A stretch of 64,000 bases of DNA from Anaerolineales bacterium. Its GTDB lineage: Bacteria; Chloroflexota; Anaerolineae; Anaerolineales; Villigracilaceae. Each line of letters begins with the position of its first letter. Positions within the stretch are counted from its first letter, which is position 1. The DNA is taken from assembly GCA_919902735.1 (NCBI GenBank), contig CAKKRM010000098.1:1531-65530 (forward strand), in the 5' to 3' direction. Positions 4,722 to 53,888 of the stretch are shown here, piece after piece. The translations under genes were made by a program, and so were the position numbers. The notes under the pieces are model-generated. The model was not told where the DNA came from, made no database searches, and was given only the letters and a program-made list of their open reading frames with translations.

Positions 4722-4907
4722 CGCCCGAAGGACACACCGCAATGGCGCACGGTGCAAGTGCCGGGACGATGTGAGCGGAGCGAAGGGTCTCTACGACAAT
4801 CTCAGAGACCCTTCGGTCACGAAGAGCACGCTCCCTCAGGGCGACATGCAAAGTGACATGAGCAAAAAATACTACGGCGGGCGCGATATAATAAGCTATC
4901 TCCGATT

Positions 4908-17949: not shown

Positions 17950-18290
17950 TCTCGTAGTTAAAAACAAAACTCTCATCTCACACAGAGACGAGAGCAAGGC
18001 TCACGCGGTACCACTCTGATTTCCATCCGAAGACGGACACTTCATGGATGACAACCATCATCCTGTTCTGATAACGAAGAACAATTTCGGATTCCCTACT
18101 CTCAAACAGGATTCTGCCTGATTTCAGTTCACAGCTCCGGGAGGATTTTCAATCGTCTACGCGTATCCGCTTCACACCTGCCCTTCGACTTTGCTCAGGG
18201 CGCCTCGGACTCGCTGACCGTTTCGACAGATTTACTCGTTCCCATCCACGCTTTTTCCGCCATGCGGAATAATGTAGTTTTTGGATTATA
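17950..18290 (-). promoter_or_regulatory. T-box riboswitch leader of ileS (transcriptional)
   Basis: Minus strand reads AGAGTGGTACCGCGTGAGCC (T-box core, about 18003-18018) then CTCTCGTCTCTGTGTGAGATGAGAGTTTTGTTTTT terminator (about 17960-17994). Upstream GATGGGAACGAGTAAATC and GAAAATCCTCCCGGAGCTGTGAACTGAAATC resemble Stem I with an ATC (Ile) specifier. Confidence 0.92.
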
Positions 18291-18332
18291 CACACCGTAA
18301 AGACAATCGGCAAGAGCAAAATCGGTAGGGGC

Positions 18333-18495
18333 CATGGCTGTAGCAAAGTCAGGAAAATCTTAGCGCGAAATACGCGAAATTGGCGAATGGACGCGAAAAA
18401 GGAAAAATTCGCGCTCTTTCGCTTTTTTCGCGGCGTTCGCGTTAAAACGACGCCATGAATTCAGAACCACGTCAAGCGACTTTGCAACAACCATA
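18333..18495. mobile_element. MITE-like element family A, copy 1 (163 bp)
   Basis: Terminal inverted repeats CATGGCTGTAGCAAAGTC / reverse complement of right end TATGGTTGTTGCAAAGTC; flanked by perfect 10-bp direct repeat CGGTAGGGGC (18323-18332, 18496-18505). Confidence 0.88.
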
Positions 18496-18678
18496 CGGTA
18501 GGGGCGGGGCTTGCGCAAGGATTATCGCATGTCGGCTGTCATGCATCCGCAAAACCAGCGCAGCCAGGAAGAGAAAGATTTGAAGGAAATTTTCCAAAAA
18601 AGTAAGCGAAGATGTAATAGAGCTGAATGAGGTTTGGTCCAAGTATTGGCTCAGGAATAGCGGGGTTATACCGTAACA

Positions 18679-18734: not shown

Positions 18735-20303
18735 CTAGCAGTCCGAGCAGAAAGTTGGGGTACGACTTGGCGTTGGCGACGGTGTGCGCGACGGTGTGGG
18801 CGTTATTTGAGTTGGTGTGCGCGTTGGTGTGCGCGTTGGTGTGCGCGTGATCGTCGGTGTATTCGTAGGTGTACGGGTCGGCGTACGCGACGGTGTGAGG
18901 GTGATCGTCGGTGTGAGGGTAATCGTCGGCGTCTTTGACGGCGTTGGCGTACGGGATGGCGTGCGCGTGATCGTCGGTGTGCGCGTGATCGTCGGTGTGC
19001 GCGTGATCGTCGGTGTGCGTGTGATGGTCGGTGTGTTTGACGGCGTGCGCGTGAGGGTGGGTGTGGCGGTGTAATTATTGATACTGCCCACCACTACACA
19101 GTCACCCCAGTTCGGGAAGTTAAAAGTCAGGCTGATATCCCAGATGCCGGACCAGGTTGAATCGCTAAAGTCCGCAATCCATTGGCGTTCTGTGCCACCG
19201 CCGTTGATTGGGAGCGCTGGCGGGATGGAGGATGTGGTCACTGGAGAGTCGACGATGTTGCTTGCGGGGTTATAGTATGTTGTCCCAAAATTCGCATAAT
19301 CGAAGTATCTGCCAGCAAGGGGGGATGGCGACCAGCTTAAGGTAGAACTCACCAAATAAGCTGTGGCAAAGTTGTTGTTACGAACACGCGCCTCGAAATT
19401 ATCGCCGAAGAAGCGGGTGCGGTTAATGAAGATATTGGGACAGGATGGCGTAGGTGTATTGGTCATTGTAGGCGTAATGGACGGCGTGCGTGTGGCTGTT
19501 GGCGTGCGGGTTGGCGTGGGCGTGAGAGTCATCGTTGGTGTATTGGTAAGCGTTGGCGACGGCGTGATGGTCGGAGTTAGCGTGATGGTCGGAGTTAGGG
19601 TAATGGTTGGAGTGCTGGTGGGAACTGTGGGGATGTTAAGCGGCAAAGGCGTGTTGATGGCGCGCGTGGCGCGAAATTGCTCCACAATCCCTTCACGATA
19701 GGAAGCGAGATGGATCATCGAAGGCTCGATGCCAAAGGCTGGCAGAACGATAAAGGTAAAGTTGTAATCTGCGGCAACCACCACACGATTCCCAGGCGCG
19801 CCGGGGTGTTCGTTACGGATGCCGTCCAGGTTGCATTCAGCATATACGGGTCTCGCCATTAATGGGGGGATGAAGACGCGCCCCTCTTCCGCTGAACAGA
19901 CGGTGATGTTGAAATAATTTTCATCTGCATTTGTCGCGGGGTCCGGGGAGCTAAACAGCGAGGTATCCCTAAGGAAAAAGCCAACCACAATGCGGCGGGT
20001 TTCATCTTTGATGGAAGGGATGCGGGCGGCATCCACTTCCGCGTCGCCATCGTCGCAGTCTCCGTCTGAATTGCCAATTAACCCGCAGTATGGGTTGTCT
20101 TCGAAATTACCCGTTGTGGCGTAGCGGATGCCGAAACGGGTGGAATTCTCGATGATGATCCAGGCAAACATCAGGCGGGAGAATTCGATGACGCCCACCA
20201 AAAGTAACAGCAGGATCGGCAATACGAGCGCGAACTCAACCATGCCTTGCGCTTTTTTGCGATCAGGCGAACTTCGAATTTTTTTGAAAAAAAGATTGTT
20301 CAT
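18735..20303 (-). CDS. TadE-like pseudopilin-type protein with two Thr/Pro-rich low-complexity regions
   Basis: KKAQGMVEFALVLPILLLLLVGVIEFSRLMFAW (TadE N-terminal segment); long PTITLTPT / TRTPTITRTPT tracts; C-terminal CSDC. Confidence 0.87.
   Translation of the reverse strand: MNNLFFKKIRSSPDRKKAQGMVEFALVLPILLLLLVGVIEFSRLMFAWIIIENSTRFGIRYATTGNFEDNPYCGLIGNSDGDCDDGDAEVDAARIPSIKDETRRIVVGFFLRDTSLFSSPDPATNADENYFNITVCSAEEGRVFIPPLMARPVYAECNLDGIRNEHPGAPGNRVVVAADYNFTFIVLPAFGIEPSMIHLASYREGIVEQFRATRAINTPLPLNIPTVPTSTPTITLTPTITLTPTITPSPTLTNTPTMTLTPTPTRTPTATRTPSITPTMTNTPTPSCPNIFINRTRFFGDNFEARVRNNNFATAYLVSSTLSWSPSPLAGRYFDYANFGTTYYNPASNIVDSPVTTSSIPPALPINGGGTERQWIADFSDSTWSGIWDISLTFNFPNWGDCVVVGSINNYTATPTLTRTPSNTPTITRTPTITRTPTITRTPTITRTPSRTPTPSKTPTITLTPTITLTPSRTPTRTPTNTPTITRTPTRTPTRTPTQITPTPSRTPSPTPSRTPTFCSDC
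18775..19070. repeat. Degenerate tandem repeat array encoding [ST]RTPTIT
   Basis: Repeated GTGTGCGCGTGATCGTCG-like units on the plus strand; coding on minus as TITRTPTITRTPT. Confidence 0.9.
19440..19635. repeat. Second Thr/Pro-coding tandem repeat array in the same gene
   Basis: GGAGTTAGCGTGATGGTC / GGCGTGCGGGTTGGCGTG units; coding TPTITLTPTITLTPTIT. Confidence 0.88.
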
Positions 20304-32515: not shown

Positions 32516-32601
32516 ATAGATTCTCCTGCTGTTTGAAATAATGCCGAAGAAAGATTATACCTGTCGGGTATAAATACGTCAACATGAATTTGGTAAGAAG
32601 G

Positions 32602-32764
32602 CATGGCTATTCCAAGGTCAGGAAAATCTTAACGCGAATTCCGCGAAAAGGCGAAAGACGCGAATTTTTCATTTATTTTCGCGTAAATTTGCCTGATTTG
32701 CGCTTTTCGCGTTAAGCCTTGCTACAAAATTAAAAAGATGTCAAGCGACTTTGGAAAAGCCATG
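32602..32764. mobile_element. MITE-like element family A, copy 2 (163 bp)
   Basis: CATGGCTATTCCAAGGTC ... GACTTTGGAAAAGCCATG terminal inverted repeats; perfect 10-bp flanking direct repeat GGTAAGAAGG (32592-32601, 32765-32774); same length as copy 1. Confidence 0.92.
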
Positions 32765-32889
32765 GGTAAGAAGGGGATGAATGACCCAGCCGACATTGAG
32801 ACAGAATCTGTTTAAGTGAGAGGTGGCAGGTATGTTCCCGGCAGAGAGATCATTGGCAGTACAATATATAAAAAACCAAAGGCTGGCTA

Positions 32890-38698: not shown

Positions 38699-38780
38699 AT
38701 CCCGAAGGTTCTCGTAAATTAAGCCTGTTTGTAGTCCAAACCTCACCGCACTAGCGCGCGGCGCAAGTGTCGGGACGGTG
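38699..38780. repeat. Dispersed repeat family D copy (CGTCCCGACACTTGCGCCGCGCGC)
   Basis: Reverse complement matches 41337-41415 almost exactly for its first ~40 nt. Confidence 0.88.
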
Positions 38781-41336: not shown

Positions 41337-41415
41337 CGTCCCGACACTTGCGCCGCGCGCCAGTGCGGTGAGGTTTTCTCGAATACTGTTGCCGTTTTTC
41401 AAACCTTCGGGACGG
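41337..41415. repeat. Dispersed repeat family D copy
   Basis: ACGTCCCGACACTTGCGCCGCGCGCCAGTGCGGTGAGGTTTT...CCTTCGGGACGG; see 38699-38780. Confidence 0.88.
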
Positions 41416-42839: not shown

Positions 42840-42980
42840 GAGTGTAGAACAGAAGTATCGGTAAAATTTCACCAAGCGCCTTGCAATGTTTAACGCAAAG
42901 GCGCAGAGATGCAAAGGAATTAAATTCTTGACGTCTTGGCGGCTTTGCGTTAAGAATCCCGGCAGTTTTGCGCCATACCC
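42840..42980. mobile_element. MITE-like element family B, copy 1 (~141 bp)
   Basis: Ends GAGTGTAG...AAGTATCGGTAAAATTTC and GGCAGTTTTGCGCCATACCC; flanked by AGTCAAAC(T/C); interior similar to 55525-55656. Confidence 0.8.
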
Positions 42981-52922: not shown

Positions 52923-53888
52923 TCATCCCCTGAAGAAATTCGAAACAAAGAACCAGATATTCGCTGGCCTCTCTGCGAGTCGTCTCATGAAATATGGATA
53001 CCAATGCGTGCCGAAGGGAACATACACCCGCACGGGGTAGCCTTCCTTCGCCAGCGATTCCTGTAAATCCCTGCGGATGCCGTAGAGCATTTGGAATTCC
53101 AGGCCGTTTTTTGGCAGACCGGCTCTCTCTGCATAGGACTTTGCAAAAGCAATGCGCTTTTCATCGTGGGATGCAATTGCGGGAATGGGCGGTACGCGGC
53201 CATCATTTGATAATTTTGTGCCATTTGCAAGGGATGTATCGATCAGAATCTTTGAAAGCAGATCGTAATTCGCATCCACATCCGCTTTTTTGGGGAAGGC
53301 TTTGTCAGGCGGTTCCTTGTACGCGCCTTTCACCAAACGGATCGGGACGCCATCCTGCGCCATGCGGCGGGTATCCGCTTCGGCGCGATATAAATAAGAT
53401 TGCACAGCCATGCCGGCATTTTCATATCCTTTTTCACGCATGGCATAATATATATTTATCGTCTTGTCTGTATATGGGGTGTCTTCAATATCGACGCGGA
53501 CAAAAGTGTTATTCTGTTTTGCACGCGCAAGGATGCGCTCGAGGTTCTGGGCGCACAGGCTTTCGTCCAGACCAAGCCCGATCTGAGTCAGCTTGATGGA
53601 GATGTTGCCCCTCGCAGCAGAATCAGCCCCCAGCGCGTCGAGAGTCGCGAAGATGTCATCTGTGGCTTGCTGCGCTTCTTCGGGGGTATTCGTATGTTCG
53701 CCAAGGTGGTCGAGAGTCGCATTGATCCCCTTTGCATTCAATTCACGGACGACGCGCATTGCTTCTTCAAGTTTTATTCCCGCAATGAAACGCGAGGCAA
53801 TACGCGATGCATATCCCCAATTTGTTACAAGTTTTTGCATCCATAGGGACTTGGAAAGGTAGATGAGAAAAGAACGTAACATATCCAT
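52923..53888 (-). CDS. Proline dehydrogenase family protein
   Basis: ALGADSAARGNISIKLTQIGL, VRVDIEDTPYTDKTINIYYAMR, IRLVKGAYKEP, EFQMLYGIRRDLQESLAKEGYPVRVYVPFGTHWYPYFMRRLAERP. Confidence 0.93.
   Translation of the reverse strand: MDMLRSFLIYLSKSLWMQKLVTNWGYASRIASRFIAGIKLEEAMRVVRELNAKGINATLDHLGEHTNTPEEAQQATDDIFATLDALGADSAARGNISIKLTQIGLGLDESLCAQNLERILARAKQNNTFVRVDIEDTPYTDKTINIYYAMREKGYENAGMAVQSYLYRAEADTRRMAQDGVPIRLVKGAYKEPPDKAFPKKADVDANYDLLSKILIDTSLANGTKLSNDGRVPPIPAIASHDEKRIAFAKSYAERAGLPKNGLEFQMLYGIRRDLQESLAKEGYPVRVYVPFGTHWYPYFMRRLAERPANIWFFVSNFFRG

Follow-up and report, generated by a model that had tools for sequence, protein, structure and literature searches.

The element upstream of ileS

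The window analysed here is a whole stretch of 64,000 nucleotides from the draft genome of an Anaerolineales bacterium, and it carries the gene ileS (TIGR00392) on its minus strand. A short repeated element, probably a miniature inverted-repeat transposable element (MITE) of the ISAs1 type, lies next to this gene. The features of the site are the following:

17981..18257, minus strand: ileS T-box leader (RF00230, E 1.5e-15; its 71.9 bits fall short of the gathering score, 93)
18285..18313, minus strand: predicted sigma-70-like ileS promoter, TTGCCG, 17, TATAAT (a single site of this sort is close to what chance would give, but its position fits)
18323..18332, no strand: target-site duplication, left copy, 10 bp, CGGTAGGGGC (sequence read and repeat search)
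18333..18495, plus strand: probable ISAs1-type MITE, family A, 163 bp (present in 27 full copies in the genome, with ends matching those of an ISAs1-family IS)
18333..18357, plus strand: left end, CATGGCTGTAGCAAAGTCAGGAAAA (all 25 bp shared with the corresponding end of the autonomous IS at locus L117)
18360..18445, no strand: interior quasi-palindrome, 86 bp (four CGCGAA-like and four TTCGCG-like units)
18471..18495, minus strand: right end, GTCAAGCGACTTTGCAACAACCATA (matches the corresponding end of that IS at 23/25 bp)
18496..18505, no strand: target-site duplication, right copy, CGGTAGGGGC (sequence read and repeat search)

The 163 bp at 18333-18495 are flush with an exact CGGTAGGGGC on either side, as read over 18323-18505, in base-for-base agreement with the original prediction of a 163-bp element bounded by an exact 10-bp duplication. 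A repeat search recovers the direct repeat of 10 bp as well as the inverted repeat of the termini. The latter had been described as imperfect, and the left end CATGGCTGTAGCAAAGTC in fact agrees at 15/18 positions with the right end read in reverse complement, TATGGTTGTTGCAAAGTC; likewise the interior, said to be rich in ACGCGAA/TTCGCGT, is a quasi-palindrome in which the units are CGCGAA and TTCGCG. There is no transposase gene within the 163 bp, which are crossed only by short frames. One part of the prediction was not supported, namely that the insertion is nested because the empty site resembles another interspersed repeat: the pattern GTAGGGGCGGGGCTTGC, searched over the whole genome with up to two mismatches, gave 4 matches, the 18323-18505 site itself included, and the reversed control gave 3. 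Further end matches within the window, at 53137 and 54878, were discarded, since no element is seen in the local sequence and chance alone would give as many matches.

The element starts 19 bp upstream of the -35 box of the predicted ileS promoter, and an effect on ileS is possible. In relatives, the conserved ileS leader block stops a few bases before the duplication and no MITE is present there. A clean empty site with joined flanks was sought in the relatives and none was found; conservation does not extend to the far flank. Beyond the element on that side, the minus strand has a 522-aa open reading frame (18735-20303) with long TPT-rich repeats (TPTITLTPT and similar), for which the NCBIfam profiles give no match.

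Copies and target duplications in the host genome

Searched at the DNA level, the host draft (4.26 Mb in 356 contigs) yielded 27 full copies of family A with 97-100% identity and the same two boundaries, together with 12 more that are truncated at a contig end or close to one, the true number being about 34 to 39, as some left and right halves may represent one insertion. Ten full copies, that at 18333-18495 among them, are identical, and among the 26 that measure exactly 163 bp the mean difference is 1.4% (56/325 pairs identical). Such near-identical copies show a recent burst of family A in this genome. In addition, part of the assembly breaks is explained, about a dozen contigs ending within family A copies.

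Exact, flush 10-bp duplications, each one different, surround 17 of the 27 full copies, whereby the conserved ends and duplications that the original prediction expected elsewhere in the genome are kept. Three other copies have an exact 9-bp duplication, two have a duplication with one mismatch in 10, one has 9 bp with a one-base offset and one (L018) a partial duplication; inspection of the flanks of the remaining three found none. Because 27 full copies have common boundaries and 17 of them flush 10-bp duplications, the element is not a product of chance. Comparison of 40 duplications of the wider family gave no clear target consensus.

An autonomous relative of the ISAs1 family

Species genomes scanned for exact matches to ATGGCTGTAGCAAAGTC gave 75 stretches, mostly of Anaerolineales or other Chloroflexi. 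At locus L117, from Anaerolineales isolate WB-IL-11, 1308 bp lie between two inward-facing ends (937-2244) flanked by the 10-bp duplication CGTTTCTTTG, and the same IS is found at L175. Its only long open reading frame, of 423 aa with a TTG start, encodes an ISAs1-family transposase (NF033564, E 3.3e-56, 190.8 bits versus a cut-off of 70) in which the Pfam domains DDE_Tnp_1 and DDE_Tnp_1_assoc are found. The family A element matches this IS at 25/25 positions of the left end and 23/25 of the right end, with the same polarity, and the match runs past the inverted repeat into stretches that are unlike between the two ends (AGGAAAA versus GTCAAGC). Given this identity beyond the inverted repeat, both IS ends appear to have been retained in the MITE and the middle lost.

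The autonomous IS with matching ends and 10-bp duplication that the prediction had envisaged is thus present in a relative (L117/L175) and absent from the host assembly, in which neither the protein search nor the family model detected an ISAs1-family transposase. The mover would therefore have been lost from the host or be unassembled; the same protein search gave matches in many relatives.

ISAs1-family elements generally duplicate about 8-10 bp of their target, and their ends are expected to begin with CAGGG. Among the loci studied, a 10-bp target duplication occurs at L117 and L175 and also at L199 and L183, two other ISAs1-family IS from related genomes with CAGGGC/TAGGGC ends. The ends begin with CAGGGC in L199 and L197, with TAGGGC in L183 and with CATGGC/TATGGC in L117 and the MITEs. 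L197 is of an intermediate type, with ends CAGGGCTTTCTTAAAGTC and a 9-bp duplication CCCACCCGG read from its flanks.

Related elements with common ends and different interiors

The window contains a second element with another type of ends:

32602..32764, plus strand: second MITE, with B-type ends CATGGCTATTCCAAGGTC / CATGGCTTTTCCAAAGTC (10 full copies in the host)
32592-32601 and 32765-32774: duplication GGTAAGAAGG flanking the B-type MITE

An exact, flush 10-bp duplication is found at 7/10 of the full host copies of the B type, and about 30 more elements of like build, mostly with exact 10-bp duplications, occur in related Chloroflexi genomes. A looser end pattern combined with a required duplication gave 39 rows in the window and the fetched loci together, a number of elements being counted twice. 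This set has a common shell and three kinds of interior: a CGCGAA array (families A and B, L075, L091 and others), an ACACGGA array (L116, L118, L125, L137, L164 and L166) and a CTGAGCGAAG palindrome (L045, L063, L066, L107 and L151). A third end type, C (TACGGCTTTCTCAAAGTC), surrounds the CGCGAA array in L215, L216, L218 and L219, and a nearly identical end, TATGGCTTTCTCAAAGTC, lies on one side of the ISAs1 transposase of L176, where a second end was sought and not found. The CGCGAA array is thus present in shells of three end types (A, B and C), and two of these types each match an ISAs1 transposon of their own.

CGCGAA arrays with no clear ISAs1 ends are also present, in the host and in relatives. 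Several of them retain remnants of one ISAs1 end, and in L323, L324 and L326 the arrays are enclosed by a different inverted repeat, GGCTCATGTGTA; from these cases, decay or nested insertion would account for at least part of the end-less arrays. An 8-bp duplication AAAGTCTT was read by eye around the GGCTCATGTGTA inverted repeat of L323, and the three loci possibly hold a MITE of another kind, into which one of the ISAs1 type was incorporated. In L322 and L325, another insert of about 20 bp lies around ACCCTTCGGGCACGAT / ATCGTGCCCGTAGGGT within the CGCGAA arrays.

Tandem MITEs were also observed. L068 (1592-1947) has the order duplication-element-duplication-element-duplication, with TAGCATCATA common to both elements, and in L026 (1491-1768) two elements share CCGCATTTGC, the second copy being truncated where the contig stops. 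Each pair includes one hybrid element, with an A-type interior and a B-type end.

Origin of the element

We think, with a probability of about 94%, that the 163-bp element is a non-autonomous MITE derived from an ISAs1-family IS and transposed in trans. That it is a MITE had already been proposed, and the proposal is sustained by the ends and duplications kept at other copies and by the autonomous IS in a relative. In the mechanism that we envisage, an ISAs1-family IS would have lost its transposase gene while keeping about 25 bp of each end, and the 86-bp palindromic motif array would have come to occupy the middle. An ISAs1-family DDE transposase supplied in trans would bind both ends and mobilise the element, which would then be joined to a 10-bp staggered target cut whose repair gives the flanking duplication. 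Mobilisation in trans, as well as the past presence of the mover in the host followed by its loss or its being missed in assembly, is what we infer from the comparisons above.

A very different origin is suggested by the strong palindromic interior. The element might be an extragenic palindrome of the REP, BIME or ERIC kind, kept as a regulatory RNA or DNA hairpin, its transposon-like ends being incidental. As single-stranded DNA it folds at -36.1 kcal/mol, better than all 200 dinucleotide shuffles (z -4.05), and the arrays with no recognisable ISAs1 ends in the host and related genomes would also fit such an origin. However, nearly all copies have sharp common boundaries and 9-10-bp duplications, by which this explanation is already largely refuted, and the end-less arrays may themselves be decayed MITEs. 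No compensatory evolution of the hairpin was found either: in 17 aligned arrays, both sides had changed in 0/21 consensus pairs, and folding is no weaker when arms are exchanged between elements, the mean being slightly better for swapped arms (-36.6 kcal/mol) than for true pairs (-33.5). The motif units are conserved across the aligned arrays and the spacers drift with no compensation, which argues for conserved sequence units rather than a conserved hairpin, within the power that 17 sequences at 75% identity allow. Altogether, we consider an extragenic palindrome very improbable.

Hardly credible is a mover from another family with 9-10-bp duplications (e.g., of IS4 type), encoded by the single DDE_Tnp_1 frame of the host (about 450 aa, on contig C315): the host indeed has no ISAs1 match, but the MITE ends resemble at 25/25 and 23/25 positions those of an ISAs1-family IS that itself has a 10-bp duplication, and none of the matches listed by the genome-wide search for MITE ends lies on contig C315.

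Relation to known systems

As a MITE of ISAs1 origin, family A shares with the ISAs1-family IS the end sequence and the 10-bp duplication, a family member with matching ends being present in a relative, and differs in lacking a transposase and in measuring 163 bp instead of 1.2-1.3 kb. In addition, its ends begin with CATGGC/TATGGT, compared to CAGGGC/TAGGGC in the other ISAs1 relatives checked, with the L197 ends in between. Bacterial MITEs such as MITEAba12 of Acinetobacter (PMC6382973) and Chunjie (reviewed in PMC10969869) are, like family A, short and gene-less, with ends that match a full IS, a fixed duplication length and many near-identical copies, whereas host phylum and parent IS are different. 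REP/REPIN sequences and extragenic palindromes (GTAG- and CGTC-tagged), given as 20-40 bp long in PMC3733652, are also palindromic, multi-copy and mostly intergenic; unlike them, family A carries duplications and the ends of a transposon, and the genome pattern test did not show its target to be a repeat. Among the open-licence papers searched, none was found that describes a MITE derived from ISAs1 or one of this kind from Chloroflexi.

Family A is an ordinary kind of parasitic DNA and a good new example of it, by which the Anaerolineales gain a mini-transposon that is clearly bounded, was active recently and has an identified parent family. What seems unusual is the occurrence of different palindromes inside the same ISAs1-type ends in related genomes. 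A tentative and rather doubtful reading of these sequences is that the ISAs1-type ends form an exchangeable shell and the interiors are cargo that passes between shells, conserved as motif arrays and not as hairpins; on this reading, the arrays would perhaps be protein-binding sites. Shared shells with differing interiors offer a way to investigate how the interiors of MITEs are gained and exchanged.

Other repeats in the window

A palindrome with TTTAACGCAAAGGCGCAGAGATGCAAAGG / GGCGGCTTTGCGTTAA arms at 42885-42955 has a build like that of the MITE interiors, with other units and no clear ends. The window also contains three copies of a dispersed 26-bp repeat:

4735-4760, minus strand: 26-bp repeat CACTTGCGCCGYRCGCYAGTGCGGTG
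38744-38769, minus strand: the same repeat
41345-41370, plus strand: the same repeat

At up to three mismatches this repeat has 78 matches in the host genome and the reversed control 0; it also occurs at L026 (1728), L217, L218, L063 and other loci. In 44 distinct contexts no duplication is visible around the copies, which nearly always follow CGA or CGAA and are mostly followed by AG. The repeat appears to be inserted in the arms of palindromic repeats of several kinds, among them MITE interiors, and is reminiscent of the small dispersed repeats of cyanobacteria (cited as Elhai 2008).
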